Shown here one piece after another: positions 10,259 to 24,920 of a stretch of DNA of 31,146 bases (position 1 is the first letter of the stretch; each line of letters opens with the position of its first letter). Below the pieces are notes generated by a model. That model was given only the letters and a program-made list of their open reading frames with translations, was not told where the DNA came from and did not search any database. The DNA lies in IMG/VR virus record IMGVR_UViG_3300020221_000073, positions 1 through 31,146 of that record. The stretch is one strand, 5' to 3'. The DNA is from a virus. The position numbers were made by a program, and so were the translations under genes.

Positions 10259-10483
10259 ATGCAAGAACTCACGCATGAAGACATAGAACAGATATGGGGT
10301 TCCATCAGCCATTACGTTCCCGACAGGCAGAAAGTGGACTGCGCTGTTGACTTTATAAAGACGTTGGTTGATGTGGGCATATCCACTAAGACGATAAAGG
10401 CAGCGGGAGAATACGACGACAAGTTAGAAGAAGCGATAGAAACTGTTTTCGAAGAAGAAGATGAGGAAGACTACGAGGAATAA
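10259..10483 (+). CDS. Small acidic protein downstream of uvsX
   Basis: The gene encodes 74 residues from ATG 10259; a TTG three bases earlier is a less likely start. A folded part with EDIEQIWGSISHYVPD and a predicted helix AVDFIKTLVDVGIS leads to a strongly acidic C-terminus of Glu and Asp. Acidic tails of this kind in phage replication proteins can mimic DNA or dock onto basic surfaces, but no such function is shown here. It is coupled to the next gene by a one-base TAATG overlap and lies 24 bases after uvsX, so a recombination-associated role is likely by context. I do not recognise a named family. Confidence 0.65.
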   Translation: MQELTHEDIEQIWGSISHYVPDRQKVDCAVDFIKTLVDVGISTKTIKAAGEYDDKLEEAIETVFEEEDEEDYEE

Positions 10484-10941
10484 TGAGTTGGTATACAAAA
10501 GTCAGCCAAGATATTAGTTTAATACCAGACTGCATCAAGTTCTTTGAGCAAGAATTGGAAACAGCACGTAAAGAGATATATATTTTTGGCAGTCTGGAAA
10601 AATCTGCAGCATCATTGCCAGGAGTAGTGGAGCAAAGATTCAATCAATTGCAAGAAATCGAAGCCATATTAGAGTATCTACACATTGAAAATAGAAGATT
10701 GAGGTCAAAGACATTTAAAAAGTTCCTAGAAAACTACAACAGGGCACTGACTTCTCGAGATGCCGACAAGTACGTGGATGGTGAATCAGATGTCGTGGAT
10801 ATGGAAAAAATAATCAATGAGTTCGCTCTGCTGAGAAACAAGTGGTTGGGTATAACGAAGGGACTGGACCAAAAACAATGGCAATTGACCAACATAGTCA
10901 AACTACGAGTGGCGGGTATGGAAGATGCCACTATCAGATAA
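10483..10941 (+). CDS. Helical protein of the uvsX cluster, possible recombination accessory factor
   Basis: The 152-residue protein is nearly all helical, with a central stretch ASLPGVVEQRFNQLQEIEAI and LEYLHIENRRLRSKTFKKFL that looks like a coiled coil (about 45-85). It ends with LRNKWLGITKGLDQKQWQLT. The pattern is one I recall as conserved in marine T4-like phages near uvsX, annotated hypothetical. T4 UvsY, the mediator that loads UvsX onto gp32-coated DNA, is 137 residues and helical. This protein has similar size and position, but I see no convincing sequence match. GAGGA just upstream of the ATG serves as ribosome binding site. Its end overlaps the methyltransferase start by 17 bases, marking the border to the glycan island. 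Confidence 0.7.
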   Translation: MSWYTKVSQDISLIPDCIKFFEQELETARKEIYIFGSLEKSAASLPGVVEQRFNQLQEIEAILEYLHIENRRLRSKTFKKFLENYNRALTSRDADKYVDGESDVVDMEKIINEFALLRNKWLGITKGLDQKQWQLTNIVKLRVAGMEDATIR

Positions 10942-11506
10942 CATAAAAATTTTACCATTTGACAGGCAGGGCCTATTAGAGTTTTTGCCAAAAGATTCTA
11001 TCGGAGCCGAACTTGGAGTTGAGCACGGGCGTTTTTCAGAACTTATATTATCGGCAGTGAGACCAAAAAAACTTTACCTTATTGACAGCTGGATTGATGT
11101 CATGACAGGAAAATTTCGTAATCAAGAAGAAACACTAAGGCAGGAAAAAAATTATAATGATGTAAGAAAAAAATTCCAAAAATATTTAGAGGTGGAAATT
11201 ATCAGAGAATCTAGCGTAGATGCCAGCAAATTATTTGAGAATAACAGTCTCGACTGGATTTACATAGATGCGGATCACAGTTATGAAGGAGTATCAAAGG
11301 ATTTGATCGAATGGGGAGAAAAAATTAAACTAGGTGGATTTATATGCGGACATGATTGGACGACTAAACCGAAAAAAAAACATGGAGTGATATTTGGAGT
11401 CAATCGCGCAGTAGAAGAATATGTTTGTAAAAATAAATTTGAATTCATAGGCATCACAAATGAAGATAATTTCAAATCATTTATGTTGAAAAAAATACAT
11501 GCTTAA
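10925..11506 (+). CDS. Class I SAM-dependent methyltransferase
   Basis: The 193-residue protein shows a Rossmann methyltransferase layout. Motif I is SIGAELGVEHGRFSE (about 26-40). A strand KLYLIDSW (about 50-57) ends in Asp in place of the usual ribose-binding acid. LDWIYIDADHSYEGV (about 104-118) is the motif IV region with IDADH, and LGGFICGHDW (about 134-143) follows. This order fits the Methyltransf_24-type family, common in glycan and natural product clusters, where O-methylation of sugars is frequent. The substrate cannot be inferred. It is the first gene of the accessory island, overlaps the upstream gene by 17 bases, and its end overlaps the HAD gene by eight. It is visibly more A-rich than the recombination genes. 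Confidence 0.82.
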   Translation: MPLSDNIKILPFDRQGLLEFLPKDSIGAELGVEHGRFSELILSAVRPKKLYLIDSWIDVMTGKFRNQEETLRQEKNYNDVRKKFQKYLEVEIIRESSVDASKLFENNSLDWIYIDADHSYEGVSKDLIEWGEKIKLGGFICGHDWTTKPKKKHGVIFGVNRAVEEYVCKNKFEFIGITNEDNFKSFMLKKIHA

Positions 11507-12086
11507 TAAAATAATATTGACAGATGTGGACGGCGTGCTATTAGAATGGGAGGATCATTTTAAAAAATGGATGCATTCTAAAGGATATAAAGAATTAAAA
11601 AATACAAATACAGAATACGACATGAGCGTTAGATATGGCATACACAAAGACAACGGCAGCGAATTGATCAGAGAATTTAACAAGAGTGCATGGATGGCCA
11701 CGCAATCTCCCATGCCGGACTCTCAAACTTGGGTGAAATTGCTGCATGCGGAGGGTTGGACATTTATTCCCATCACATCACAAACATCTGATGTACCGGC
11801 TCAAAGATTAAGGAAAAAAAGATTGGAAGAATTATTTGGTGATACCGTGTTTGCAAACTATTTCATATTGGAGACAGGAGATCATAAGGATTCCGCATTG
11901 GCAGAGTTCCACAATACTGGATTATGGTGGATAGAAGACAAATGGAGCAATGCTATCAAGGGATTGGAATATGGATTGAAACCTTTATTGTATAATCACA
12001 TTTACAACCAAGGATTAACACATGAACATATCGTAAGAGTAAATAATTGGCAACAAATATATAAGATTATTACCAAAAGGATATAG
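11499..12086 (+). CDS. HAD-superfamily phosphatase
   Basis: The protein has 195 residues. HAD motif I is ILTDVDGVLLEW with nucleophile D9 and general acid D11. A Thr/Ser motif lies in FIPITSQTSD (about 84-93), and a late acidic motif in LWWIEDKWSNA (about 143-153), with a lysine-rich segment before it. An insert at residues 20-75 acts as a cap. The layout resembles small nucleotidase or sugar-phosphate phosphatases. In this setting it could dephosphorylate a sugar-phosphate intermediate, but that is inference from neighbours. The start ATG overlaps the previous gene; the stop abuts the next ATG (TAG-ATG) with an AGGA site in its last codons. Confidence 0.78.
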   Translation: MLNKIILTDVDGVLLEWEDHFKKWMHSKGYKELKNTNTEYDMSVRYGIHKDNGSELIREFNKSAWMATQSPMPDSQTWVKLLHAEGWTFIPITSQTSDVPAQRLRKKRLEELFGDTVFANYFILETGDHKDSALAEFHNTGLWWIEDKWSNAIKGLEYGLKPLLYNHIYNQGLTHEHIVRVNNWQQIYKIITKRI

Positions 12087-12761
12087 ATGAAAATATTCGT
12101 AGGATATGATACTCGAGAAGACATATCATATCAGGTGTGTGAGCACTCGATCAAACGGAGAAATAAGGACGTTAATGTGGTTCCATTAAAAATGAAACTG
12201 CTCAGGGAGTCTGGAATCTACACCAGAGATATCGACAAATTGGCCAGCACAGAATTCACTTTCACAAGATTTTTTATTCCATATCTGCAGAATTATCAAG
12301 GATGGGCAGTATTCTGTGACTGTGATTTTGTCTGGCGAATAGATGCCATGGAGCTAGAACAATTTTACGATGACAGTAAAGCGGTAGTGTGTGTACAACA
12401 TGATTACAATCCAGAAGAAGGTGTGAAAATGGATGGGCAATTACAACTTGCTTATCCCCGAAAGAACTGGAGTTCAATGGTGTTATGGAATTGTGCCCAT
12501 CCAAAAAATCAAATATTAACTCCAGAATTATTAAACAAAGAGACAGGAAAATTTTTGCACAGATTCAGTTGGTTAGAAGATTCTGAAATTGGCTCTATGC
12601 CTTGCGAATACAATTGGCTTGTGGGCTGGTACAAGGAACCCAGAGACGGGCATCCAAAGATCCTACATTACACCGAAGGTGGTCCGTGGTTTGAAAATTA
12701 TAGGAACTGCGAATATGGTGATGTCTGGAAGAAAGAACTTATAAATCTTTTTTCGTCGTGA
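12087..12761 (+). CDS. GT-A fold glycosyltransferase
   Basis: The 224-residue protein begins MKIFVGYDTREDISYQVCEH, an opening seen in short glycosyltransferases related to family 8. The metal-binding DxD equivalent is D78-C79-D80 in WAVFCDCDFVWR. An acceptor-side region follows, with MVLWNCAHP, WLEDSEIGSMP and HYTEGGPWF near the C-terminus, where a His coordinates metal in GT8-like enzymes. No signal or membrane helix is present, so it acts in the cytoplasm. It would transfer a sugar from a nucleotide donor; donor and acceptor are unknown. The next gene starts within its stop codon (GTGA overlap). Confidence 0.78.
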   Translation: MKIFVGYDTREDISYQVCEHSIKRRNKDVNVVPLKMKLLRESGIYTRDIDKLASTEFTFTRFFIPYLQNYQGWAVFCDCDFVWRIDAMELEQFYDDSKAVVCVQHDYNPEEGVKMDGQLQLAYPRKNWSSMVLWNCAHPKNQILTPELLNKETGKFLHRFSWLEDSEIGSMPCEYNWLVGWYKEPRDGHPKILHYTEGGPWFENYRNCEYGDVWKKELINLFSS

Positions 12762-13210
12762 GCTGGTCCATAGCCAATATCAATTGTCATAGAAAACCCA
12801 TATGCCATGTTTACTCCGGTGCTCTAGTATCAAGAAACATCTACGACAAGTTGTATGAGCAATGGAATAACATAGGGCATGAACATTGGAGAAAATTCAC
12901 CGATGAGATGAAAGTCGAAGTATACTTTCACGATGATTTCACCAGCATGTTGACTCCAAAAAAGATCAACGGATATATCGGCTATTGGTTTTTCCAACAA
13001 CGCACAGATAGGAGCAAGGGGGGAGAAATAGAGCTTGCAAATGGAACTGATAAAAAAATATTAAACTACTGCAGCAACACAATTTTAATAATAGAAACTG
13101 ACAAAACTTTCAACGTGCTTGCTAGAAAGCACCAGTTGCCGCAAAGGCCCTTTTGCGAAATTTATTTTGACGATATCACCAACAAAAAGATAAAAAAGTT
13201 TTTCTATTAA
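12758..13210 (+). CDS. Unknown protein, possible double-stranded beta-helix fold
   Basis: The 150-residue protein starts at GTG 12758, whose bases overlap the previous stop; no better start is visible and no ribosome binding site is seen. The central part is strand-rich, with YIGYWFFQQRTDRSKGGEIEL, then NTILIIETDKTFNVLARKHQ, then QRPFCEIYFDD. This spacing of strands, a Gly-Gly turn and a late Arg-Pro-Phe recalls 2-oxoglutarate/Fe(II) oxygenases or cupins. The expected His-x-Asp pair is not clear, so an inactive or divergent version is possible. Its 3' end overlaps the converging minus-strand gene by four bases. I would not assign a function. Confidence 0.55.
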   Translation: MSWSIANINCHRKPICHVYSGALVSRNIYDKLYEQWNNIGHEHWRKFTDEMKVEVYFHDDFTSMLTPKKINGYIGYWFFQQRTDRSKGGEIELANGTDKKILNYCSNTILIIETDKTFNVLARKHQLPQRPFCEIYFDDITNKKIKKFFY

Positions 13211-13902
13211 TCTTTGAATATTTTATTGGACTCTACTAATATTTTATTACCTGGCAGGTATTTTTTTTGCCCATAACCGTGCCCAAACCAACACTTTGGA
13301 CCACCATTTTTTTTATTAAACCTATAATCCATTTTTTCAACAACAACTTGACTTTTTAAGGTTGCGTACACTAAAATCTTGTTATCGTCGTCTGGATATT
13401 CTTTAAATTTTAAGAAAGGCGCAATGGTTTTGGCAGAATACTCATTTAACATGAACACCCCTGCATTAAATCTTTCATTCCTAAGTACTTTTGGCTCAAA
13501 AACTTTTAGTATGCTATTTTTTTCGCTTTCCTCATGCCAATCGATTGATCTCTTTAAAGCTCTTTTATCTACACAAGGCTTGAAAGTATTATTTCTAGGA
13601 TACATTTCAAAAATATTGGGTGCAGTTGGCCAACAAATCACATCGGTGTCTAAATATAAAATTTGATCGTATTCTTCCCACCAATCATTATTTAAAAATA
13701 AATCAAATCGTTCGAATGTTGGATGTACGTGATTTATTCTTGGCGTTGAAATTAAAATATAATCAACTTTACATTTGTCTGCATAAATTTTGGCAGACTT
13801 TTTTGAATATTGTAAAAGTTCTTGATTTACTTTTATATTTACAAAATCAGGATTGGAGAACGTCTTAGTCTCCATAAAGAATTGTACCACACAATTTTTC
13901 AT
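13207..13902 (-). CDS. GT8-like glycosyltransferase
   Basis: The 231-residue protein has GT8 hallmarks: DxD as D85-T86-D87 in ILYLDTDVICW, the acceptor loop ERFNAGVFMLNEYS (about 142-155), and a C-terminal HGYGQKK segment near residues 210-216, equivalent to the metal-binding His of the family. It is cytoplasmic and has no membrane helix. It is the last gene of a three-gene minus-strand block. Its ATG overlaps the stop of the preceding minus-strand gene by one base, so the two are coupled. The coding region is visibly more AT-rich than the flanking plus-strand genes, suggesting separate acquisition. Donor and acceptor sugars are not predictable. Confidence 0.8.
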   Translation of the reverse strand: MKNCVVQFFMETKTFSNPDFVNIKVNQELLQYSKKSAKIYADKCKVDYILISTPRINHVHPTFERFDLFLNNDWWEEYDQILYLDTDVICWPTAPNIFEMYPRNNTFKPCVDKRALKRSIDWHEESEKNSILKVFEPKVLRNERFNAGVFMLNEYSAKTIAPFLKFKEYPDDDNKILVYATLKSQVVVEKMDYRFNKKNGGPKCWFGHGYGQKKYLPGNKILVESNKIFKD

Positions 13903-14714
13903 TATAAAATATTTAAGTTTTTTAATATGCTGACTGCCATACCATTTTCAAATTCCTCGGGCGTAAACTGTTGATAAGCCAAGGAATACAGCCATTTAGA
14001 TGGATCAGTGTAAAAAGGATCTTCTATTTCCGACAGTCCCGGCGATGACATGATCCAAGCAAAACTCTTTGTATCACTGAATATCGGAACCCCTTCCAAC
14101 GCTGCCTCAACTGCGCTGATACTGCAACTGGTCACGCAAGCCCAAGCATTGCGCAGATCATGCTCCAAAGATACTGCAGCCACACTAGGACCAGACGTTC
14201 CGGCCTTCCGGGGTTTTTCTCTTATCTTAATGGGTCGATCGGTATATTTTTTTATCTCATTGACAGTGTTGTTGGTCCAATTGGTTTTTTTAAGATATTT
14301 GTGTATACCTAGACTGCTGGGGCAGATAAGAATATATTCTCCTTGATTTTTATTTCTTGTTTTTATTGGTAAGTTAAATTTATCAAACCTATCCGAAGGA
14401 CAATCTCTTATAAATTTAGCATGTATCTGATTCTTACAAATTCTCCAGTAGTGATTATCATTCTTTAAGTTTGAATTGTTAAATCTCCCAAAATAAGGTG
14501 TGTCTGTGTACCAATACTCAGATCGCTGTTGCTCTAATTGATGCACAAGATTAATATTGTTATTAATAAATCCCCAAAACATAGCAGGAGATTTAGCATC
14601 TGTGTCCAGATTATTTTTTATTTCTGTTTTCTCGGGCCAGGTTCTTTGTATTCCTTTAAACACTTCCCAGCATTTACTCTTGGGACTATCAGATGGTGCG
14701 TAAATTGTTAGCAT
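13902..14714 (-). CDS. GT-B-like transferase of the four-member paralogue family (copy A)
   Basis: The 270-residue protein belongs to a family with three other members in this window. Shared landmarks in order are: YWYTDTPYFGRF (67-78), a nucleotide-side strand YILICPSSLGIHKY (127-140), RPIKIREKP (160-168), CSISAVEAALEGVPIFSD (197-214) and the closing AYQQFTPEEFENG (246-258). The Ser/Glu plus Gly-Val-Pro segment is the donor-binding region in capsule-type GT-B and CDP-glycerol transferase-like proteins. Its start lies within the 3' end of the SGNH gene (26-base overlap). The role is probably transfer to a growing glycan; the donor is unknown. RxxP replaces the RPHP motif present in copies C and D. 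Confidence 0.68.
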   Translation of the reverse strand: MLTIYAPSDSPKSKCWEVFKGIQRTWPEKTEIKNNLDTDAKSPAMFWGFINNNINLVHQLEQQRSEYWYTDTPYFGRFNNSNLKNDNHYWRICKNQIHAKFIRDCPSDRFDKFNLPIKTRNKNQGEYILICPSSLGIHKYLKKTNWTNNTVNEIKKYTDRPIKIREKPRKAGTSGPSVAAVSLEHDLRNAWACVTSCSISAVEAALEGVPIFSDTKSFAWIMSSPGLSEIEDPFYTDPSKWLYSLAYQQFTPEEFENGMAVSILKNLNIL

Positions 14715-15354
14715 CTATAAATTCTTGTAAAAGTTTTGCCCATTGTCGGTGTCCCTCTGTGCTGGGGTGGGGATCTTGTGGACTTACAAACAAATTTTTT
14801 TCAACCACATATTCAAAGTGTGATATCTGCGGAGAGAAAAATCTTCGCATATTGATGGAATCTCGTATGATTTTGAAATCAGATACATCGGTGTCAAAGC
14901 TATTTGGCATTGCATTGTACATCACATAGGGTATATTTTTTCTTTCAAAATAATTTTGGATGTCGAACACATTGTCTAAAAAGTTCATGATTGCATTGTT
15001 ATCTATATCCCAGCCAGTATTCTTTATCAGGAAGCTGACATTATCCAGCGTTTTCCAGGTGCGCCACGTCAGCTCCGATCCTTTGACTCTTCCTGCCTTC
15101 CAACCATCATTGGTTACGTAGTCATTCCTATGCATACTGCTCCATCCTATAATGGCAAATACATCCTTGGTGCCATTCTGCTCAAACCAAACCTTGGTGG
15201 TAAAACTGATACGATCATTGCCCCGCCCACCCATGGCCAGATTCGTTAATTGCAAATTGTAATGTTGGGCTAATTCTTCTGCAACAAACGTATCAACATT
15301 GTCTTTGGGCCTCCTGCATAAGAAACTACAACCATTGGAAAACAATTTGGACAT
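14689..15354 (-). CDS. SGNH/GDSL-like hydrolase
   Basis: The 221-residue protein has SGNH-type blocks. Block I is LFSNGCSFLC with candidate nucleophile S10. Block II/III is NLAMGGRGNDRIS with G42-G43 and N46 as oxyanion-hole candidates. The C-terminal block is QDPHPSTEGHRQW with D194 and H196 as the catalytic pair. There is no signal peptide, so it would act inside the cell. SGNH proteins in glycan loci often add or remove O-acetyl groups, and that is the likely but unproven role. It is the first gene of the minus-strand block and diverges from the GT61-like gene across a 34-base AT-rich promoter region. Confidence 0.72.
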   Translation of the reverse strand: MSKLFSNGCSFLCRRPKDNVDTFVAEELAQHYNLQLTNLAMGGRGNDRISFTTKVWFEQNGTKDVFAIIGWSSMHRNDYVTNDGWKAGRVKGSELTWRTWKTLDNVSFLIKNTGWDIDNNAIMNFLDNVFDIQNYFERKNIPYVMYNAMPNSFDTDVSDFKIIRDSINMRRFFSPQISHFEYVVEKNLFVSPQDPHPSTEGHRQWAKLLQEFIDANNLRTI

Positions 15355-15375
15355 TCATGTATAATATAGTATAAT
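15347..15375 (+). promoter_or_regulatory. Sigma70-type promoter in a divergent AT-rich gap
   Basis: TTGGAC (15347-15352), a 17-base spacer and a perfect TATAAT (15370-15375) precede the GT61-like ATG at 15389, giving a leader of about seven bases. The -35 lies inside the start of the divergent SGNH gene. On the minus strand TATAAT (15379-15374) and TATACT (15373-15368) are candidate -10 boxes for that gene. Confidence 0.6.
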
Positions 15376-15388
15376 TATAGAAAAAACA

Positions 15389-16471
15389 ATGATTGTAAAA
15401 AATATATCAGCTATACAATACTTCATAGAACGGTTTGATATACTAGATGCACCATATCAATACACCGTTGATTATCATATTGATGCTCCTCGAAAAACTT
15501 TTATCACCAATCCCACGTTTATGGCTGAGTTCCATGACTGTACAACACACAGTTTACCCTTGTTGATAACAAATGAAAATCATCTCATTACCTCACACAT
15601 ATGGCCCCTATTGCATAATACAAAATACAAACCAAAGAAGACACATGGGCTATGGAGTGCATGGGGAGAGAACATAGATATATCTCTATCTGCTCCCGCC
15701 AAAAAATTTGAGGAAGAGTACAAATACGTGTGGTTGCCCATCGATGAGCTCAGCGCCAACAACGCCTGGCACATCTGGATCGACGTGATATCAAAGTTTA
15801 GATTGATGGAAAAAAAATTCAGCCACAAATATACGGATTTTATCTATGTGTTGAGCAACTCCAGTGAATATTTCGATCGTGTGGCCGGAGAATTATTTCC
15901 TGAACTTAGATATTACGTGATGCCCAAAAACACAACATGGAAATTTGCGCATCTTTTGGTGCCATCCATGAGCAATCATGAGGATGGCGTGACTGTGCCA
16001 GAAATGCCAAAGTGGCTCCGCCATAAATTTGGCCAGAAAATAGAGCCTACAAGAAAAATTTTTATCAGCAGGGAGGATGCCCCCGCGAGGAAATTGATTA
16101 ATGCCGAGGAAGTGTTCATGGCTCTGCAAGGTTGGGAAACCGTTACTCTATCTGGAATGATAACCCAAAAACAGATAGAACTTTTTTCAGGAGCTAGTCA
16201 TGTAATATCTACACACGGAGCTGGATTAGCCAATCTATTATGGTGCCAGGCAGGAACAAAAATCATAGAAATAAGTCAAAAGGAATTATTAGATAAAAAA
16301 GTCTATCCTGTTTTAAGCCATCATTTGGGATTATCCCACCATGTATTATTGGGTGAAAAAGTGACAATAGCAGGAGATAAACCCAAAGGAGTAAAAAGAA
16401 AAAAAGATTTCAATGACATCACCGTAAACACGTCCGCTCTATTTGAATTGATTAATCAGGTGCAAAAATAG
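15389..16471 (+). CDS. GT61-like glycosyltransferase (DUF563 type)
   Basis: The 360-residue protein resembles family 61 transferases. The N-terminal half carries the acceptor region with ELSANNAWHIWIDV (about 116-129). The C-terminal half has RKIFISREDAPARKL (about 222-236), a regulatory-like Asn/Glu segment INAEEVFMAL, and the signature ASHVISTHGAGLANLLWC (about 269-286), followed by AGTKIIEIS. The HGAG(L/M) motif with its catalytic-region His is diagnostic. Known members act in capsule, LPS and plant glycan synthesis. There is no signal peptide, so the reaction is cytoplasmic. A strong promoter with almost no leader lies just upstream, and it begins the plus-strand run of four genes to asnB. 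Confidence 0.82.
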   Translation: MIVKNISAIQYFIERFDILDAPYQYTVDYHIDAPRKTFITNPTFMAEFHDCTTHSLPLLITNENHLITSHIWPLLHNTKYKPKKTHGLWSAWGENIDISLSAPAKKFEEEYKYVWLPIDELSANNAWHIWIDVISKFRLMEKKFSHKYTDFIYVLSNSSEYFDRVAGELFPELRYYVMPKNTTWKFAHLLVPSMSNHEDGVTVPEMPKWLRHKFGQKIEPTRKIFISREDAPARKLINAEEVFMALQGWETVTLSGMITQKQIELFSGASHVISTHGAGLANLLWCQAGTKIIEISQKELLDKKVYPVLSHHLGLSHHVLLGEKVTIAGDKPKGVKRKKDFNDITVNTSALFELINQVQK

Positions 16472-16486
16472 AATAATTAATAACAA

Positions 16487-17302
16487 ATGATATATCTGAG
16501 CAAGACTGATAGACCCACTACAGAGAAATACATAAGTTGGGCCCAACAGGGTTTACCAGGATCAAAAATTTTACCATATGATCAAGTACTTCGGCAGAGA
16601 GATGCCGACAAGGTCATATTGATGGGTATATTAAGGGGTACCAACATGGTATATCATTGGGCTATCAAAAACAAGATAGATTTCTATTTCATTGACCGAC
16701 CTTATTGGGGGATGAGCCGAAGCGAACCTTACCTCATGAGGATAACCAAGAACCATCACGCAAAAAATTATTTAGAATCTAGGCCTGATGATCGTTTTCA
16801 AAAATATTTCCCATTTAAGATCGAACCATGGAAGAAGAATGGAAAAAAAATTGTAGTATGCCCTCCCACGCACAGCATAGCGGTCATGTTCGAACAGGAA
16901 GGTTGGCTATCTAAAACTTTAGAAATTTTAAGAGCTAATACAGATCGAGACATAGTTGTGAGAAATAAAGGATATAATCCCGATAGCAAAATAGATGAGT
17001 TCGGTCGACTGATGCCTGGCCCAAACGACAATGAGGACACTGCCACACCAATCGATTGGAATGACACTTATGCCATTGTGGCATTTAACAGTAACATAAC
17101 CATAGAAGCCACAGCGAGAGGCGTGCCCGTGTTTACGGACATAATGAACTCATGTGCTCCTATAGCAGAATTAGATTTCTCAAAGATAGAAACGCCCAGG
17201 TATGCGGATAGAGAGCCCTGCTATCATTCTTTGGCATACGGACAATTTACAAAAGAAGAAATTCAAAATGGGTACGCATGGAGCATATTAGATGAAAGTT
17301 GA
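16487..17302 (+). CDS. GT-B-like transferase of the paralogue family (copy B)
   Basis: The protein has 271 residues with the same landmarks as copy A: FYFIDRPYWGMSR (66-78), KIVVCPPTHSIAVMF (121-135), RDIVVRNKG (154-162), NSNITIEATARGVPVFTD (201-218) and YGQFTKEEIQNGYAW (251-265). It aligns end to end with copy A, including a matching ESRPDDRFQKY block (copy A: RDCPSDRFDKF), so A and B are the closest pair. The 16-base gap from the GT61-like gene and 11-base overlap with copy C argue for one transcript. Function is inferred as sugar or polyol-phosphate transfer in glycan assembly. Confidence 0.7.
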   Translation: MIYLSKTDRPTTEKYISWAQQGLPGSKILPYDQVLRQRDADKVILMGILRGTNMVYHWAIKNKIDFYFIDRPYWGMSRSEPYLMRITKNHHAKNYLESRPDDRFQKYFPFKIEPWKKNGKKIVVCPPTHSIAVMFEQEGWLSKTLEILRANTDRDIVVRNKGYNPDSKIDEFGRLMPGPNDNEDTATPIDWNDTYAIVAFNSNITIEATARGVPVFTDIMNSCAPIAELDFSKIETPRYADREPCYHSLAYGQFTKEEIQNGYAWSILDES

Positions 17303-18275
17303 AATATTTAGAAGAACAGTGAAAGATAGACGTCGAGGAGCCAGCTGGGAATTATTGCAACACATGGCCGAGGGTATAAAAAAATCCGGCGACGAACCCG
17401 TGATTGTGAACGAAAATCTCACAGGAAATTGGCGCCAAGACGAGATGGAACCCACTGCTCCAATTGGTTGCATGTTTGGGTATGGTGGTGACAAACAGAT
17501 ACATCACACCAAGGGCAGAAGGAGGGACCTTGTGGAACGTGCCAAAAAGAAAGGCATCTATATTATTACATTTGATGGTGGTTTGCTGAGCAGTTTTGGA
17601 AACACAGTGGATCATCCTCATCACCATTGGAGAGTGGCTCTATATTCTCCCATGAACAATGGCGACTTCCTATCAGACAACTCTCCACCAGATCGTTGGG
17701 AAATGATGAAAAGTTTATGGAATATTAAAAATGATCCCTGGAGGAAGTCCAATCCCGAAGATCCGATACTGTTTGTTCTACAACCCAAAGATAACTGGAG
17801 CATGAACGAGCTAGATCCGATCGATTGGTTCAATGGAGTCTATGACACACTGAGGAAATTGACTCACAGGAAATTTTTAGTGAGGCCTCATCCTAATCAT
17901 ATGGCAGCGATAGCAGACAGGGCAAAAGAATTTCCCGGGGACGTGGAATTAGTTATAGGCCCTAAGTTTTTTACGGGAGATAATAAAAAATTCTATAGAT
18001 TTAATTTTCAAGAAGCGATTGCCAATTGTCATGCTGTGGTCACCCACAACTCCACCGCTAGCACAGACAGTTGTGTGAGAGGCATACCTACTTTCTGCAC
18101 GTCAGATTTGGCAATATGCTGGCCTGTGGCAAACCAAGACTTGACCAAAATAGAATCACCAGTATTGCCTGATAGGTCACAATGGTTAAATGACATAGGA
18201 TATAAAATGTGGACCACGGAAGAGATATCTAATGGCACAGTGTTTCGTAGATTTAAACATAGATTAGGATTATAG
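17292..18275 (+). CDS. GT-B-like transferase of the paralogue family (copy C)
   Basis: The 327-residue protein starts inside the end of copy B. An extended N-terminal half contains MFGYGGDKQIHHTKGRR and YIITFDGGLLSSF. The conserved C-terminal half has FLVRPHPNHMAAI (about 195-207), HNSTASTDSCVRGIPTFC (about 252-269) and the closing WTTEEISNG (about 307-315). RPHP followed by a Ser-rich donor loop is typical of CDP-glycerol or capsule-type (Kps-like) GT-B enzymes. Compared with copies A and B it is longer by about 55 residues and carries Cys in place of the acidic residue of the donor loop (STASTDSC). It is directly upstream of asnB with a one-base gap. Substrate unknown. Confidence 0.7.
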   Translation: MKVEIFRRTVKDRRRGASWELLQHMAEGIKKSGDEPVIVNENLTGNWRQDEMEPTAPIGCMFGYGGDKQIHHTKGRRRDLVERAKKKGIYIITFDGGLLSSFGNTVDHPHHHWRVALYSPMNNGDFLSDNSPPDRWEMMKSLWNIKNDPWRKSNPEDPILFVLQPKDNWSMNELDPIDWFNGVYDTLRKLTHRKFLVRPHPNHMAAIADRAKEFPGDVELVIGPKFFTGDNKKFYRFNFQEAIANCHAVVTHNSTASTDSCVRGIPTFCTSDLAICWPVANQDLTKIESPVLPDRSQWLNDIGYKMWTTEEISNGTVFRRFKHRLGL

Positions 18276-18276
18276 C

Positions 18277-19992
18277 ATGTGTGGCATATATGGCATAACC
18301 AAACGAGATAGAGACTTTATAGAAAAGTATATAAAAATCTGCGAACATCGAGGACCAGATGGACAGGATATTTGGAATGATGATTCTGTCACTCTAGGAC
18401 ATAATCTTTTAAGCATAACCGATCAGCCACAAGTGTCGCATCAGCCATGGCACACTGAGAGAGGCAACATATTAATATATAATGGAGAGATTTTTAATTA
18501 TTTTGATTTGATAAAAAAATACACAGCTTTTAAACCCCGTACCACATGTGATACAGAATTGTTAGCATGGGGATTGGATCACCATGGTGAAAAATTTGTT
18601 GAAGAGATTGACAGCATGCATGCCTTTGCCTATTACAACACCCAGTCAAAGCAACTGATATTGAGTAGAGATCATGCTGGCATCAAACCTCTATACTATG
18701 CTGAAACCGCGGAGGGATTAATATTTGGTTCAGAAATAAAAGGCATGCTGGATCAGGTGCCCAACTCCAGGAAGATAGATCAGTTGGCGATCAGCTGCAT
18801 GAGCCTCACCGGCATCAATGCCACCAGGAACACATTCTTCTCCAACATAAAACAACTGATGCCGGGAGAAACAATCACATATGACTGTGCAAGAAAAAGA
18901 ATAAAATCATCAGAAAGAATTTACATCACTCCAAGATCTAATCGATCCTTTGATCCCGCGGAGTTCAGAGATCGTGTGAGAAAGACTGTGCAGATGTCAA
19001 GCATAGGACGAAGACAGATGGGGGTATTCCTCAGCGGTGGGTTGGATAGCAGCGTGGTAGCATATGAGATGATGAAGATACATGGAGCTGTGAACACATT
19101 CACTAATAAAATGCAGCCCAATGTCGTGACCGATGAAGATTACAACAGTGATGCCGCCTGTGCAAAAATTTTAGCTGTGCAAGAAAAATTCAATCACACC
19201 GAAGTTATTATCACACCCAACGATGTCATCGCGGCATGGAAAGACAGCATCTACTACATGGAACAACCTGTCTACAACCCCAGCATGAGCATGTATTATC
19301 ATACCAATCGCAAATTGTCGGAGGCCGGCACCGTCATAACCATGGCGGGAGACATGGGCGATGAGATACTGGGAGGATATCCCAAGTATTGGAAAATGAA
19401 AGATGAAAAGTTCCGTTCATGGGGAGACATAATAGACAAATGGTTACAAAGAATAAAAAGACCACTAGTGGTGGGAGTGCCGACTCTGCCGGCCGCGGTG
19501 TTGAGAGAAGAGTTAATAAAGTTGTATCCTGACACCTTATGGAATCCTGTGGATCCCGTAGCATCTTATATGGCCCTTGATTGTGTGGCACAAGCACCAA
19601 ATGAATTCTTCTCTAGGAACGACAAATACGGCATGGCGTTTGGCATGGAGGGGAGATTTCCTTTGACCACAAAAATGTTCATGCAATATTGCCTGGACAT
19701 ACCAACCAGTCACAAGATAGGAAAAAATAAACACGAGACAAAGTTATTGACCAAAATTGCCTACAAAGGATTACTGCCAGATGCAATAATTACGAAACAA
19801 AAGACAGGTTGGACTGTGCCAATCGGACAGTGGCTGGCCATGGGCATTGATAACAATTTAAAAAAGTTTTATACTAGCTGTGTCGGAGAGAAATCAAGAC
19901 TGGATAGGATAACGGTAAGCCAAAAGGCAAGCAAAGCTCTGGTTCCAGCCTGGGTCATGCAAGATTGGATCAAAAAGTATGAGATGTTGTGA
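18277..19992 (+). CDS. asnB: AsnB-type glutamine-dependent amidotransferase (asparagine synthase family)
   Basis: The 571-residue two-domain enzyme begins MCGIYGI, so Cys2 becomes the N-terminal nucleophile of the class II glutaminase domain. HRGPDG (24-29) and YNGEIFNY (68-75) are glutaminase motifs. The synthetase domain has the pyrophosphate loop FLSGGLDSSVV (251-261) and the later MAGDMGDEILGGYPKYW. Both halves appear intact. The canonical reaction makes asparagine from aspartate, glutamine and ATP. In polysaccharide loci, relatives instead amidate sugar carboxylates or add amino groups to sugars. Its place between glycosyltransferase and methyltransferase genes favours the second role, but ordinary asparagine supply to an infected cell cannot be excluded. 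It ends one base before a convergent gene. Confidence 0.88.
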   Translation: MCGIYGITKRDRDFIEKYIKICEHRGPDGQDIWNDDSVTLGHNLLSITDQPQVSHQPWHTERGNILIYNGEIFNYFDLIKKYTAFKPRTTCDTELLAWGLDHHGEKFVEEIDSMHAFAYYNTQSKQLILSRDHAGIKPLYYAETAEGLIFGSEIKGMLDQVPNSRKIDQLAISCMSLTGINATRNTFFSNIKQLMPGETITYDCARKRIKSSERIYITPRSNRSFDPAEFRDRVRKTVQMSSIGRRQMGVFLSGGLDSSVVAYEMMKIHGAVNTFTNKMQPNVVTDEDYNSDAACAKILAVQEKFNHTEVIITPNDVIAAWKDSIYYMEQPVYNPSMSMYYHTNRKLSEAGTVITMAGDMGDEILGGYPKYWKMKDEKFRSWGDIIDKWLQRIKRPLVVGVPTLPAAVLREELIKLYPDTLWNPVDPVASYMALDCVAQAPNEFFSRNDKYGMAFGMEGRFPLTTKMFMQYCLDIPTSHKIGKNKHETKLLTKIAYKGLLPDAIITKQKTGWTVPIGQWLAMGIDNNLKKFYTSCVGEKSRLDRITVSQKASKALVPAWVMQDWIKKYEML

Positions 19993-20592
19993 TCAATGTA
20001 CTTGATAATGGCATAGATCAATTTCTCTCGTTTTAAATTTATAGTAATTGGCTTTGTACCTCGTATCAAAGTATGTTCGCTTTTGAACGAATTTAAGATT
20101 TTTAAATTTTTCTATGCCGGGTTTGATATGGGGATGGTTTCCATCATCGAATACGAAATTCTTTATGCCGAGATGCAGGGACAGCTCTATATCCCTCTGC
20201 ACTATCTCTGGCCAATGTCCCCCGTCGATGAATGCCAAGTCATACCCTGATATCGGCAACGACCTGCTGCCTAGCATGACCTCCATAGCCACTTTCTGAC
20301 TGTCACCCCACACTATTTCATGCCTGCCGGGAAATTTTTCTTTGAGGATTTCCGCACCCTTCCTGGAGCTGTCTATTTCTATTATCTCGATGCTGGTGAT
20401 CTTTACTGATGGAAACATAGTCATCAACAAGGCACTGCTCCAACCGGTATTGAATCCAAATTCCAATACGTTGGTAAATGGAAATGAATTGTAAAAATGT
20501 TTCCATGCATTGACCACATGCTCGGTTGGGCATAGATGTCCTGTGTGTCCAGGAGGCATATAGGTTAAATTGTAAATAATTTTTTGTGACAT
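19993..20592 (-). CDS. SAM-dependent methyltransferase-like protein
   Basis: I take the start at 20592 (MSQKIIYNLTYMPPGHTG), 16 codons inside the longest frame, because the longer version would run into the divergent promoter region and adds a hydrophobic, unconserved-looking extension. That gives 199 residues. Motif I is NVLEFGFNTGWSSALLM, with the usual G-x-G-x-G modified to GFNTG. ITSIEIIE holds the acidic end of strand 2, and YDLAFIDGGHWPEIV is the IDGGH motif typical of Methyltransf_24-like proteins. A second methyltransferase of the same broad type begins the island at 10925. It converges with asnB and diverges from the GT-A gene at 20621. Substrate unknown. Confidence 0.72.
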   Translation of the reverse strand: MSQKIIYNLTYMPPGHTGHLCPTEHVVNAWKHFYNSFPFTNVLEFGFNTGWSSALLMTMFPSVKITSIEIIEIDSSRKGAEILKEKFPGRHEIVWGDSQKVAMEVMLGSRSLPISGYDLAFIDGGHWPEIVQRDIELSLHLGIKNFVFDDGNHPHIKPGIEKFKNLKFVQKRTYFDTRYKANYYKFKTREIDLCHYQVH

Positions 20593-20618
20593 GGTATCAA
20601 TTAAATATAATATATTTA
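20584..20618 (+). promoter_or_regulatory. Divergent promoter with palindromic AT core
   Basis: TTGTGA (20584-20589), a 16-base spacer and TATAAT (20606-20611) precede the ATG at 20621, leaving a leader of only a few bases. The core TTAAATAT-AAT-ATATTTAA (20601-20619) is a perfect inverted repeat that also places TAAATA on both strands (20602-20607 forward, 20618-20613 reverse), so it may serve both the methyltransferase and the transferase genes. Confidence 0.5.
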
Positions 20619-20620
20619 AC

Positions 20621-21529
20621 ATGAAAATCAAAGTAATCACTTCTTACAAACCAGGCACATGGGATCTCTATTCCGGCAGAGGTATCAAGAGCATTGCCGA
20701 ACAATGGCCTGCAGAAGTTGACCTTGTGGTCTATCTCGAAGAGCCCAAACCCAAGTACGACCATCCCAGGATCACATGGATTGATCTCAACGCTGCCGAA
20801 CCGGAGTTGTTGAAATTTAAAAATCGACACAGGAACGATCCAGTGGCTTGTGGTGAGCTACAGGAGATACCGGGAGGAGTCAGGAGGCCCGCTTGTCTGC
20901 AACAAAAGGGGGGATTGGACAAAAATAAGGGTTCCTTTCTTTGGGACGCTGTGAGATTCAGTAATAAAGTTTTCTGCGTGATCAATGCCATACGTAATTC
21001 CAGACAATATGATTATGTAATATGGATCGATGCTGACACATTTACTTTTAGATCCATGCCATTAGAGTTTCTAATGAAACTTTTACCCAGCAATACTATG
21101 GTTACATATCTCGGCAGAGAAAGATTTTCTCTAAATGATGGGGGCAAATATCCAGAGTGCGGTTTCGTTGGCTACAATCTAAGGCACGCCCATGTACAAG
21201 AATTTGCCAAAGAATGGGAAAATTTGTTTATCACAGATGAAGTTTTCAAATTATTAGAATGGCATGATAGTTTTTTATTTTGGCATCTTGTAAAATATTT
21301 CCAAAAAAAATATAATATAGAAGTAAATGACATAGGCTATGATAAAAATGTCAAGGGACATCACGTGTTCGTGAACAGCGAATTGGGATTATACATGGAT
21401 CACATGAAAGGCAAGAGAAAAAAATTAGGCAGCAGCTCTAAAAATGATTTAAGACCACCAATGAAGAATGCTCCTGCAAATGTGTGGGAAATAGATTATT
21501 GGAAGAAAGTACCAACGTCATTAAAATGA
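20621..21529 (+). CDS. GT-A fold glycosyltransferase
   Basis: I start at ATG 20621 (MKIKVITSYKPG, 302 residues); an upstream ATG at 20591 would read through the promoter palindrome and overlap the divergent gene. The protein has a conventional GT-A start and the metal-binding D137-A138-D139 in DYVIWIDADTFTF, followed by TYLGRERF and a Cys-containing acceptor loop PECGFVGYNLRH. The C-terminal region has WHDSFLFWHLVKYF and a His-rich part (YDKNVKGHHVFVNSELG). There are no membrane segments. It differs from the other two GT-A proteins in length and acceptor loop, so it is not a recent duplicate. Its stop overlaps the next ATG (ATGA). Confidence 0.76.
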   Translation: MKIKVITSYKPGTWDLYSGRGIKSIAEQWPAEVDLVVYLEEPKPKYDHPRITWIDLNAAEPELLKFKNRHRNDPVACGELQEIPGGVRRPACLQQKGGLDKNKGSFLWDAVRFSNKVFCVINAIRNSRQYDYVIWIDADTFTFRSMPLEFLMKLLPSNTMVTYLGRERFSLNDGGKYPECGFVGYNLRHAHVQEFAKEWENLFITDEVFKLLEWHDSFLFWHLVKYFQKKYNIEVNDIGYDKNVKGHHVFVNSELGLYMDHMKGKRKKLGSSSKNDLRPPMKNAPANVWEIDYWKKVPTSLK

Positions 21530-22398
21530 AAATAGCATTATTTCCAGACAATGGCAGTCTCAACAGTAAACCCGTGTTCGCCGCGCTAATAGAACACCTC
21601 AGAGCAAAAGGAGAAAACATATACATCAATGAAGATAGAGATTGTGACGTTGCTGTGATTTGGTCTGTGTTATGGTTAGGAAGGATGGCCAGCAATAGAC
21701 AAATATGGGAAAAATACAAAGCAAAAAATAAACCAGTGGTAGTAATGGAGGTGGGCGGCCTAAAGAGAAACACGACTTGGAAGATGGGCATCAATGGTAT
21801 CAACAGAGATGCTGATTTTGCGAATCAGATATTTGATAACAAAAGATGGCCACTATTCAATATAGAAATGAAACCGTGGAAGCAAACAGGAAATGTAATA
21901 GTAATATGCGGACAACACGACACTAGTCAGCAATGGCAAAAAAATCCACGTATGTCTCACTGGATAGAACAGCAGATAAAAGAAATCAGAAAATACAGTC
22001 AAAAACCCATACTGGTTAGACCACATCCTAGAAACAGCTTTGATTTTGACGGGAAAAAATATATTAACGTGAAAATTAAAAAACCTGAAAGGGATTGGAC
22101 CACATATGATGATACTGATTTTAAAAAAACACTCAAATCGACTTGGGCGGTTGTGAATCATTCCAGCAATCCAGCCATAGAATCTGTAATTAATGGTATA
22201 CCAGTTTTTGTGAGTGAATCAAGTTTGTGTTATGAAGTGGGCAATGCAAATCTTTTTGATTTAGAAAAACCGGCAATGCCTAATAGACTAGGTTGGGCGC
22301 ACAAACTTTCTTATACGGAATGGACAGTACAGGAAATCAGAGATGGATTGCCATGGTCTAGAATACGGCAGAGACTTGCAGAAAGATACATAAAATAG
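21526..22398 (+). CDS. GT-B-like transferase of the paralogue family (copy D)
   Basis: The start is ATG 21526, which overlaps the previous stop by four bases (ATGA); the longer frame beginning at 21484 adds residues read from the upstream gene's 3' end. The 290-residue protein opens MKIALFPDNGSLNSK and has KPILVRPHPRNSFDF (about 160-174), NHSSNPAIESVINGIPVF (about 210-227) and the family tail YTEWTVQEIRDGLPWSRI (about 265-282). It shares RPHP with copy C and the ending pattern with all three others. It lies downstream of a strand switch, separated from copies B and C by asnB and a minus-strand gene, so the family is dispersed rather than in tandem. Substrate unknown. Confidence 0.7.
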   Translation: MKIALFPDNGSLNSKPVFAALIEHLRAKGENIYINEDRDCDVAVIWSVLWLGRMASNRQIWEKYKAKNKPVVVMEVGGLKRNTTWKMGINGINRDADFANQIFDNKRWPLFNIEMKPWKQTGNVIVICGQHDTSQQWQKNPRMSHWIEQQIKEIRKYSQKPILVRPHPRNSFDFDGKKYINVKIKKPERDWTTYDDTDFKKTLKSTWAVVNHSSNPAIESVINGIPVFVSESSLCYEVGNANLFDLEKPAMPNRLGWAHKLSYTEWTVQEIRDGLPWSRIRQRLAERYIK

Positions 22399-23151
22399 AT
22401 GCCTGTTCAATCAATCATACGACACAAAGACTTACACACCGTGACTGCTATCGAGTGGACCCCTTACAAAGGCGAAACTATCATAACCAAAGTGTCAATC
22501 AAAGGGGGCAAGAAAACCCACGAAACGGAATATGTTGAGGATGTAGTTAAGGCACGGCCTCGAGGCAATGCCTACATTATCGGCAACGGCCCCTCCAGAA
22601 AAGGATTCGATCTCAATCTTCTCAGAGATTCTGGCCAAATATATGGATGTAATGCTCTCTACAGAGATTTTATTCCCGATTATCTATTCATGGTGGATAG
22701 ATTTATTTCCCAAACCATAGTAGATGAAAAAATTTATGAAAAATGCGTGTGTTATGCTCCGGCTTTAGAATACACTAAAAGTAAAAAGAAACTAAACTTG
22801 ATTCCAAATAATCCTCATTGGGTATCTGGTTCCGCCGCCATCTGGACAGCCTGTGTGCATGGACATAAAAATATATATTTGATAGGATTTGATTTCAAAG
22901 AATATGGCAAGGGGCAATTGAACAACATCTATCAAAACACGGAACACTATGGTCCTCGCGACAGCGACACTTTGCATGAGGGATGGCTGACTCAATTTAG
23001 AATTTGTATTAAACAGAGACCATATTGTCAATTTACTGTGGTACACGATAATCCAACAGAACCATTGCATCATTTACAAACAGGTATCGACTTAAAGAAT
23101 ACAAAACTTATGACCTACGCTGAATTTACAGAGAAAGTCCTAAGCCGATAA
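22399..23151 (+). CDS. DUF115/sialyltransferase-like (GNGPS motif) protein
   Basis: The 250-residue protein has the motif AYIIGNGPSRKGFDLN (about 58-73), followed by QIYGCNALYRDFIPDYLFMVD (split across about 81-101) and, later, VSGSAAIWTACVHGHKNIYL (about 142-161) with IGFDF. The order of a GNGPS loop, a Cys-Asn-x-x-Tyr strand and a Ser-Gly helix is found in DUF115/MptE-like proteins and in GT42 sialyltransferases, which bind CMP-sugars or other nucleotides at GNGPS. In this island a transferase role is most likely, but the family also includes non-transferases. It abuts copy D (TAG-ATG). Its last 26 bases overlap the convergent SprT-like gene. Confidence 0.66.
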   Translation: MPVQSIIRHKDLHTVTAIEWTPYKGETIITKVSIKGGKKTHETEYVEDVVKARPRGNAYIIGNGPSRKGFDLNLLRDSGQIYGCNALYRDFIPDYLFMVDRFISQTIVDEKIYEKCVCYAPALEYTKSKKKLNLIPNNPHWVSGSAAIWTACVHGHKNIYLIGFDFKEYGKGQLNNIYQNTEHYGPRDSDTLHEGWLTQFRICIKQRPYCQFTVVHDNPTEPLHHLQTGIDLKNTKLMTYAEFTEKVLSR

Positions 23152-23530
23152 ATTTAAATCTAGGACGGAAGCTGTAGAAAATGCTGTTGTGATTTCCGGT
23201 GTCCTTCTTCAATGCAAATTGGTATAGATGTATCATCTCGTGTGCAAGTGTTTCTATAAAATCTTTCTTTGTCTGATACTTGCGTACCATCTCTAATTCA
23301 AATCTTGTAGGATTTTTATCTGGATAGGCGCACACCTGCCCCATGGCCTGTTTCAACCATTTCTTGATTATGATCTTGTCGAAATTGGGTAACTGGTTGT
23401 TAAAGACTGCTCGATTGATGTAACGAAACCAGCGATGTATGGCACGTCTATTCGTAAGATACGGTCCTTTGTGATCAAGGGTCTCTTTCACTATCTTGTG
23501 CCTCAATTTCAATGCTTTTTTTCTTCTCAT
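23126..23530 (-). CDS. SprT-like zinc metalloprotease
   Basis: The 134-residue protein has the zincin motif AHEMIHLYQ with H97-E98-x-x-H101 and a probable third ligand H114 in GNHNSIFYSF, the arrangement of SprT and Spartan-type proteases. The N-terminal part is basic with a short helical segment (RRAIHRWFRYINRAVFNNQL). Spartan relatives cleave DNA-protein crosslinks; SprT in bacteria is less well defined. A phage copy beside uvsW would fit removal of protein blocks in replicating or recombining DNA, but this is inferred. The gene is alone on the minus strand, with its 3' end overlapping the convergent glycan gene. The start at 23530 is the only one that keeps the basic N-terminus. Confidence 0.78.
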   Translation of the reverse strand: MRRKKALKLRHKIVKETLDHKGPYLTNRRAIHRWFRYINRAVFNNQLPNFDKIIIKKWLKQAMGQVCAYPDKNPTRFELEMVRKYQTKKDFIETLAHEMIHLYQFALKKDTGNHNSIFYSFRPRFKFIGLGLSL

Positions 23531-23544
23531 AATTGGCAGATCAA

Positions 23545-23572: not shown

Positions 23573-23585
23573 TAATTATCCAAAA

Positions 23586-24920
23586 ATGTCAAACACAAAC
23601 ACAACACGACGCCAGCTGGAATCCATGGAAGCCGCTATAAGAATACTGGCTTACAATACAGGAGGAGCATGGCAAAGTTCTGGTGTGCATGACAAAGATT
23701 TCAAAACCATTCAAAGTCTGGCTGACGCTCCATACGCCTGGACAGAGAAGCAGGGTACACTGGCCATGCTGTTCTTAAAGAGATATAAAACTCTGTTAGA
23801 AAAATTTGATTTCGATGTTGACGAGCTTATTAAAAATCCAAGATACGACCAGCCCTTCAGGATAATAAATTTTGAAAAAAGTATAGACATATTGCATGCG
23901 GAAGACGGCAGAGAAGTTATAGAAATAAGATTTCCTTACAACGAGAAATTAATTGCATTGATAAGATGTCTGAAAAAGAAGACACAAGAATTAGTTCCTA
24001 TGTTGTATGATGGGGAGACAAAAAAATGGACAATGAATTACACCGACACTGTGGCCTACTATGTCACGCTGATAGCGGTGAGATATGATTTCAAGATATT
24101 GAACCTTAAAATTTTAACTGACTATGAAGAAATAAAACAAGAAAAGAAAAAGTATCTACCTATCATTGTTGACATCGAGTATGACTCGATAAAACTGATC
24201 AATGCTCCCAACTCACTTGCAGATTATTGGCAACAAAACTGCCAATCGCTGTCGTATCTTCAACAGCGAGATCAATTGAAACATATCCGTGTTTCTTGCA
24301 CAAGAAATAATTCTGCACCTGCAAAAAGCCTAGCAGAAAAAATAGCCTATGCATCTGATACTAATTTGTTTGTGGACAGAAAAGTTTATGATAAAAAAAC
24401 CTTACTACAAGCCATCATCGAGTTAGGAGATCTTCCAGCAATCTGTCCGTTCAGCGGAGAACTTGATGTGAAGAATGAAATAACGCCAGTGTACCAGTGG
24501 CTGCAGGAATTTGAGTCAGCGGGTATTGCCAAGGACGAGATAACGTTTGGTTTCGAGCTCAATCAACCCATGTCTCTGGATCCAGATCCAGAGGTCGACC
24601 AGTTTCCTAACGCGGATTTTATCTATGGAGCAGAAACATCCATGGAAGAGCGTAAGCTAATATATGATCAATGGAAAACCTTGCATGCATTGAGCGTCAG
24701 CAATAAAAGGATCTCCCCGCGGACCAAAATCATATTTGTTAGAAATAAAATACCAAGAGCACTATTGAGATCTGGAATCAAACCCAAGATAGCATTCATG
24801 CTGCAGGACACTCCCATGTGGGCCATGAGCACCAACACTCTGGACAAGCTGGTTGAAAATTTGCCGAAAAGATTGTATTATATGAGTCAGAAACCATCTG
24901 ACAAAATACAATCTGTATGA
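23586..24920 (+). CDS. HARP-like domain protein paired with UvsW
   Basis: I start at ATG 23586 (MSNTNTTRRQ, 444 residues). The longer frame from 23496 reads through the promoter and gives an implausible hydrophobic leader. Residues 112-165 resemble the HARP domain of annealing helicases (IRFPYNEKLIALIRCL, then YDGETKKWTM). Flanking blocks include YAWTEKQGTLAMLFLKRY (50-67) and the C-terminal KIIFVRNKIPRALLRSGIKP. No Walker A or DExH motif is visible, so it is not itself a complete helicase. Its stop overlaps the uvsW ATG by four bases, which implies coupled production. A DNA-binding partner or specificity subunit for UvsW is a reasonable but untested idea. Confidence 0.62.
   Translation: MSNTNTTRRQLESMEAAIRILAYNTGGAWQSSGVHDKDFKTIQSLADAPYAWTEKQGTLAMLFLKRYKTLLEKFDFDVDELIKNPRYDQPFRIINFEKSIDILHAEDGREVIEIRFPYNEKLIALIRCLKKKTQELVPMLYDGETKKWTMNYTDTVAYYVTLIAVRYDFKILNLKILTDYEEIKQEKKKYLPIIVDIEYDSIKLINAPNSLADYWQQNCQSLSYLQQRDQLKHIRVSCTRNNSAPAKSLAEKIAYASDTNLFVDRKVYDKKTLLQAIIELGDLPAICPFSGELDVKNEITPVYQWLQEFESAGIAKDEITFGFELNQPMSLDPDPEVDQFPNADFIYGAETSMEERKLIYDQWKTLHALSVSNKRISPRTKIIFVRNKIPRALLRSGIKPKIAFMLQDTPMWAMSTNTLDKLVENLPKRLYYMSQKPSDKIQSV

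Follow-up and report, generated by a model that had tools for sequence, protein, structure and literature searches.

To our knowledge, glycosyltransferases (GTs) encoded by phages usually come as one or two genes. The closest phage cases to the system considered here are the GT genes of Pelagimyophages (PMC7029224), the core GTs of moraphages (PMC12619734), and the mini-clusters of Pelagibacter phage Mosig and Caulobacter phage CcrSC. Here we analyse an island of fifteen open reading frames (ORFs), named G1-G15 in order along positions 10925-23151 of a 31-kb fragment from an uncultivated phage (IMG/VR record IMGVR_UViG_3300020221_000073; all 31,146 nucleotides are hereafter the window). The original prediction described a 15-gene glycan island between recombination genes, larger than the one- or two-gene GT additions of phages, and on both points it was right: the island is real and all fifteen ORFs lie where they had first been placed. 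It is 99.6% coding, with a GC content of 39% versus 42% in the flanks, and is bounded by a uvsY-like gene on the left and by an SprT-like gene and then UvsW on the right. The uvsX cluster had been named as the left neighbour; more exactly, the gene directly to the left is UvsY-like.

The phage's UvsX and TerL match those of Phosso, PA5oct and similar T4-like jumbo phages, and a megablast comparison of a 20-kb part of the window with cultured phages returned no match. Membership of the moraphages was considered and dropped because that group is reported to lie outside the T4 group; TerL and the major capsid protein were not directly compared with those of moraphages.

A clade-wide locus with exchangeable content

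Related contigs of freshwater and marine origin were found by searching IMG/VR with UvsW and TerL, and the island comparison covered 24 islands, the window's own included. An island occupied the identical site, from uvsY to sprT/uvsW, in 23/23 related contigs examined. G2, G3, G6, G9, G10, G13, G14 and G15 were present in every island whose contig covers the position, and alignments showed invariant catalytic motifs across island homologues. Other content was exchanged between islands. This included the AsnB-type amidotransferase (AsnB, 15/23 islands) and a NAD-dependent sugar epimerase/dehydratase, which occurred in 12/24 islands and is missing from the window's copy, as well as FkbM methyltransferases, kinase/cytidylyltransferase-like, 2-oxoglutarate (2OG)-oxygenase-like and sulfotransferase genes, a further methyltransferase, an extra GT (family c17) and swapped SGNH genes. 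The claim that no nucleotide-sugar gene is present thus holds for the window and fails for those islands. NTP_transferase (PF00483) was found in two related contigs only, outside the island.

Heterogeneity was also apparent at fine scale. Close relatives with a whole island had 2-4 of the window's 15 genes missing or replaced (six in contig G009), and whilst their flanking genes were about 80-88% identical, the shared island genes averaged 67-82%. The locus is conserved throughout the clade while its content is hypervariable, and it is no isolated insertion. 'Inserted', the wording of the original prediction, therefore fits a multi-gene set at a junction of recombination genes and does not fit a locus that all relatives carry there; relatives do share the same genes, yet these belong to glycan functions rather than to the ordinary core of a phage. 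The gene between sprT and uvsW (window 23496-24920) also varied strongly, with 28-82% identity among relatives versus 79-96% for the adjoining uvsW; the TTG start listed for this gene is probably too early.

Contigs of 186-335 kb whose UvsX is 73-86% identical, G056, G057, G058 and a 335-kb contig among them, have islands at the same site, and in the deeper relatives (UvsX 73-78%) the island content differs. In more distant islands the shared core goes down to G3, G9, G13 and G14 types, and the island of the 335-kb contig additionally encodes a nucleotidyltransferase-mannose-P-isomerase fusion and a GSCFA protein. Two cultured jumbo phages that share the gene order have no island: in Sinorhizobium phage Phosso, three genes separate uvsX and uvsY from the helicase, and in Vibrio phage 2.275.O a single gene lies between uvsY and the helicase. 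Because deep relatives share the site and it is empty in these two phages, the simplest history is an early gain at this site in one lineage, followed by diversification. Large phage contigs of this lineage were also found binned into GTDB bacterial assemblies, namely the 335-kb and 153-kb contigs in the Neomarinimicrobiota metagenome-assembled genome RS350 (L238/L240) and others elsewhere (L213-L216). Such contamination would mislead claims on host or gene content.

Family and fold assignments

Assignments were based on Pfam, TIGR and PHROG profiles, hhalign, AlphaFold models searched with Foldseek, and catalytic motifs (Table 1). At least nine of the fifteen proteins are GTs: four GT-B of KpsC/WbbB Kdo-transferase fold, one GT61, one GT8, one GT6-like GT-A, a second GT-A and one GT42-like protein. 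Most of the proteins do fall in GT or sugar-modifying families, and the three GT-A enzymes, the GT61, the AsnB amidotransferase, the two methyltransferases and the SGNH protein named in the original prediction were upheld by profiles, models and conserved motifs. Its four related GT-B proteins were confirmed as well: G6, G9, G10 and G14, which singly have no clear family match, are mutually homologous in hhalign profile-profile comparisons (98.9-100%). Profile searches of the PDB were uninformative for G10 and G13, for which modelled structures were compared instead. The G10 model matched KpsC, KrkA and WbbB, GT-B transferases of 3-deoxy-D-manno-oct-2-ulosonic acid (Kdo), and the G13 model matched WbbM and GT6 GT-A enzymes (Foldseek, E about 1e-7). 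The protein first recognised by its GNGPS motif, G15, proved GT42/sialyltransferase-like (E 1e-4); profile and alignment indicate similarity to Cst sialyltransferases that includes the GNGPS and SGxxA...GxDF blocks. G11 scores above the TIGR01536 cut-off and has both the N-terminal Cys2 of the glutaminase and the SGGLDS ATP motif. None of the 15 island proteins has a transmembrane segment, and no PF00534 domain was found in the window.

Two genes were reclassified. G2, listed originally as a HAD phosphatase of the glycan set, is NT5C-like and is probably a neighbouring phage gene, not a sugar phosphatase or a member of the glycan pathway, because its orthologue lies about 260 kb from the island in a 335-kb relative. 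G4, first left as unknown, is by profile comparison a distant relative of a 2OG-Fe(II) oxygenase-like cassette family (c20). From alignments, the true starts of G13 (~20621) and G14 (~21526) are probably ~30-42 nt downstream of those listed.

G3 belongs to a large phage family and is 48% identical to a 'putative glycosyltransferase' of Pelagibacter phage Mosig. Its chromosomal homologues are 52-61% identical and mostly from Alphaproteobacteria; a host suggested by these homologues is not claimed, as their gene neighbours vary. In Rhizobiales chromosomes (L237, L241, L247, L263, L264) the G3 homologue adjoins a GNGP-motif protein that recalls sialyltransferase-like families, a pairing similar to the one in the phage.

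Table 1 Island genes and flanking genes in the window, with the evidence for each assignment.
Gene	Assignment and class	Position	Strand	Evidence
G1	SAM (S-adenosylmethionine) methyltransferase (Methyltransf_24), accessory	10925..11506	+	Pfam 7.4e-15; only in the window's species, missing from the other 23 islands
G2	HAD/NT5C-like phosphatase, left edge	11499..12086	+	NT5C 0.002; phrog_420 4e-28; unlinked orthologue in 335-kb relative
G3	GT-A glycosyltransferase, core	12087..12761	+	weak GT8; phrog_28018 1e-53; invariant DxD (D78-C-D80) in alignment
G4	Small protein, accessory, fast-evolving	12758..13210	+	hhalign 96.5% to family c20; c20 matches PF13640 2.5e-4 (2OG-Fe(II) oxygenase-like)
G5	GT8 glycosyltransferase (GT-A), accessory	13207..13902	-	PF01501 9.2e-6; LPS (lipopolysaccharide) 3-alpha-galactosyltransferase model 6.5e-5
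G6	GT-B glycosyltransferase, core paralogue family	13902..14714	-	hhalign 100% to G9, 99.8% to G14; 24/24 islands
G7	SGNH-type hydrolase/acyltransferase-like, accessory	14689..15354	-	GCSF, G43 and D194xH196P blocks kept in 16 homologues; no Pfam match
G8	GT61 glycosyltransferase, near-core	15389..16471	+	PF04577 2.5e-20; 21/23 islands covering the position
G9	GT-B glycosyltransferase, core	16487..17302	+	hhalign; homologues in Pelagibacter phage Mosig and Caulobacter phages
G10	GT-B glycosyltransferase, core, KpsC/KrkA/WbbB-like Kdo-transferase fold	17292..18275	+	AlphaFold pLDDT 79, pTM 0.79; Foldseek best 6mgb E 7e-8, TM 0.50
G11	AsnB-type glutamine amidotransferase, accessory (15/23)	18277..19992	+	TIGR01536 1.8e-90; Asn_synthase 6e-47; conserved C2, S253-G-G
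G12	SAM methyltransferase (Methyltransf_24), accessory (4/23)	19993..20640	-	Pfam 4e-9
G13	GT-A glycosyltransferase, GT6/WbbM-like, core	20591..21529	+	invariant DAD (D147-A-D149); AlphaFold pLDDT 72; Foldseek WbbM E 8e-8, GT6 enzymes
G14	GT-B glycosyltransferase, core	21484..22398	+	weak GT52 0.0034; hhalign
G15	GT42/sialyltransferase-like, core	22399..23151	+	GNGPS...GCN...SGxxA...GFDF; PDB profile: CstII-type GT42 E 1e-4
uvsY-like	UvsY-like, left boundary flank	10483..10941	+	50% identity to Vibrio phage 2.275.O protein annotated PF11056 recombination protein; 54% to Phosso 416
sprT-like	SprT-like, right boundary flank	23126..23530	-	PF10263 2.8e-10
uvsW	UvsW helicase, flank; query for finding relatives	24917..26386	+	

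A G15 paralogue in the head operon

The island itself lies outside the structural operon, and a paralogue of G15 lies inside it. In four long relatives (C57, C44, C40 and G032) the head operon has the order portal, G15 paralogue, prohead core, protease, scaffold and capsid protein; portal, protease and major head protein were confirmed by PHROGs, whilst 'prohead core' and 'scaffold' are named from T4-like gene order. The paralogue was found in 33/40 capsid loci having both portal and protease. Contig G037 (L425), which is 99-100% identical to the window over eight shared genes and represents the window's own species, carries it at 11408-12034, between portal and prohead core, with the T4 late promoter sequence TATAAATA upstream at 7131. 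In a tree of G15-like proteins, the island and head-operon copies formed two separate groups (99/97 support).

Further sugar-modifying genes were found near structural genes. A sulfotransferase-like gene follows the capsid gene in C40 and G056, C40 also has an FkbM methyltransferase and an SGNH gene there, and L398 has two SGNH genes. Between its tail protein and endolysin genes, Caulobacter phage CcrSC carries one GT42-like and one G3-like gene, two genes for GT-B enzymes and one for a methyltransferase. A different type of gene, encoding a DctP-type TRAP-transporter solute-binding domain (PF03480, 4e-29), lies a short way downstream of the G056 capsid gene (L332 9950-10885).

Proposed product and competing explanations

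The best explanation, on which our confidence is evenly divided, is that the island directs cytosolic assembly of a variable oligosaccharide onto a virion protein. The soluble GTs (three GT-A, four GT-B, one GT61 and one GT42-like) would transfer sugars sequentially from host nucleotide-sugars, giving one or a few short oligosaccharides. Donors probably include CMP (cytidine monophosphate)-activated acids; the resemblance of G10 to Kdo transferases, of G14 to GT52 and of G15 to GT42 hints, weakly and by analogy, at such acidic sugars. AsnB amidation of a uronic-type acid is known from related polysaccharide loci, and G11 may act likewise, with the methyltransferases and the SGNH protein capping or acylating sugars. 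Because no transmembrane segment, GtrA or Wzx flippase was found, the acceptor would be reached from the cytosol. It would most likely be a head or tail protein, such that particles bear a sugar coat differing between close relatives, its structure changing through cassette exchange at the fixed site. The order of reactions, the donors, the size of the glycan, the virion acceptor and any benefit, whether shielding or receptor or particle interactions, are all inferred. Of the three targets originally put forward (virion proteins, host surface glycans and DNA), the head-operon paralogue in the same species appears to favour the virion over host glycan and DNA; such neighbourhood arguments are not proof. 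More tentatively, the locus might be a phage counterpart of an O-antigen locus, with heads or tails throughout the clade coated by an oligosaccharide of perhaps five to nine residues that the phages assemble themselves, a strain-level 'serotype' set by cassette exchange and a dedicated GT42-like enzyme of the late head operon acting on the capsid.

Several observations weigh against a virion acceptor. The island sits among recombination genes, in G056 at a distance of ~33 kb from the gene for the capsid protein, and T4-type late promoters are lacking in the islands, with a single TATAAATA in 328 kb. G057 and G058 have the head-operon paralogue and islands without G15, and the paralogue could serve another pathway. 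The similar mini-set of Pelagibacter phage Mosig does not adjoin structural genes. The GT8-, Kdo- and GT52-type resemblances are equally those of host LPS-core enzymes, and glycan, acceptor and enzyme activities are all predicted.

Given this near absence of TATAAATA, early or middle transcription of the island together with the recombination genes is probable. The sequence is scarcer than expected in several contigs (G037, G056, C44, G032 and C57 were looked at) and is probably functional, since the copies that G056 and C44 retain mostly lie 10-120 nt upstream of ORFs. Early or middle expression would be compatible with machinery that is ready before head assembly, and equally fits the rival explanations.

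The strongest of these is modification of the host LPS core, as LPS-core type transfer needs no flippase. The GTs would extend or cap host LPS core or O-chain against superinfection or reabsorption, with export by host MsbA or Wzx, an explanation that we regard as rather unlikely but that stays live. GT8, GT52-like, KpsC/WbbB-like and GT61/GT6 folds are typical of LPS or capsule enzymes, a lipid A-core product would require no flippase, G3 has close chromosomal homologues in Alphaproteobacteria, location with non-late genes permits early action, and the authors of the Pelagimyophage study argued the same for their GT genes (PMC7029224). However, seven or more GTs are far above known conversion modules and no membrane-anchored or GtrA-type protein was seen. 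Specifically, the Gtr serotype-conversion feature PF04138 (GtrA) was absent and no transmembrane segments were present for an anchored GtrB or GtrC. The Wzx family PF01943 was absent in 12 records (controls positive) and no island protein is polytopic; Wzy was not searched as a family. Remodelling of the outer membrane would presumably be slow for one lytic cycle, and the head-operon paralogue would be left unexplained.

DNA hypermodification, with GTs building sugar chains on a modified phage base against nucleases, was tested because the T4 DNA beta-glucosyltransferase gene also lies near uvsX. DNA is cytosolic, like the island machinery, and phages with multi-sugar DNA have reportedly been found. 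Searches found neither PF00303, the thymidylate-synthase family that includes dCMP/dUMP hydroxymethylases, nor the T4 beta-glucosyltransferase family. PF00303 was not detected in any related viral contig searched, among them the 335-, 210-, 197- and 186-kb relatives and the 75- and 51-kb contigs of the window's species, with Phosso and Vibrio phage 2.275.O positive; this disfavours DNA rather than excludes it, as the records may be incomplete. PF09198 was absent from the long relatives, with T4 positive, the 15 island proteins match neither T4 GT family in Pfam, and direct searches with T4 gp42 and the beta-glucosyltransferase found nothing. A Tet_JBP search also found nothing and, having no positive control, was uninformative. 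None of the amidotransferase, sulfotransferase and FkbM cassettes is a type known to act on DNA sugars, and overall we judge a DNA target improbable. A free or secreted product, such as an exopolysaccharide or a small molecule or host protein that bears sugars, appears similarly improbable: large viruses of eukaryotes do make free polysaccharide (PMC9614988) and the acceptor here is only predicted, but neither a flippase family nor a transmembrane segment was found. High turnover and content that differs between close relatives could instead reflect a recombination-prone parking site for host-derived genes without a common product. This is very improbable given the same GT core at the same place across deep divergence, the invariant catalytic motifs, and swapped genes that are nearly all sugar-modifying enzymes too.

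Significance

A phage lineage common in fresh and marine waters thus carries a glycan locus of roughly 8-14 kb that is fixed in place and hypervariable in content. If the product of this locus is on virions, aquatic phages would vary their surface sugar much like bacteria vary O-antigens, with consequences for adsorption, grazing, defence and the survival of particles. With an LPS or DNA target, too, the locus supplies uncharacterised GT families (four GT-B paralogues, GT6-like and GT42-like) with conserved partners, and it offers a clear, testable link to the capsid. It is a real and informative feature among virus-encoded glycosylation clusters.

Comparison with described systems

Phage-encoded glycosylation of capsid and tail-tube proteins has reportedly been demonstrated in mycobacteriophages. 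One or a few GTs act there on virions whose glycans are demonstrated, whereas here the glycan is predicted. Pelagimyophages are also aquatic and T4-like and carry GT8-type and other GTs, mainly within the hypervariable tail-fibre region or as sets of two or three genes (PMC7029224), whereas here a fixed uvsY-uvsW site accommodates roughly 10-20 genes. The island thus lies outside any tail-fibre region; fibre-like repeat ORFs are elsewhere (17-32 kb in G037). A single run of genes in Pelagibacter phage Mosig includes FkbM genes and homologues of G3, G6, G9 and G13, and the set in Caulobacter phage CcrSC (NC_048048, gp511-516) comprises about six genes, without AsnB, GT61 or a GT6-like gene. Moraphages, compared by description only, are likewise large, aquatic and uncultivated, and their core genome includes four GT orthogroups; they are reported to lie outside the T4 group, and the text read describes no GT cluster, site or cassette structure (PMC12619734). 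The open-licence literature searched held no description of a head-operon GT42-like gene or of a fixed cassette-swapped locus, and a literature search for FkbM or sulfotransferase together with phage-encoded GTs found none.

Closest in organisation are the clade-specific glycogene clusters of mimiviruses, which, like that of Cafeteria roenbergensis virus, combine several GTs, methyltransferases and sugar-modifying enzymes in one locus with clade-dependent content (PMC9614988). The product of those clusters decorates the particle, the hosts are eukaryotic and the nucleotide-sugar pathways are fuller, whereas the island described here belongs to T4-like phages that would rely mostly on host donors, with a predicted virion acceptor.

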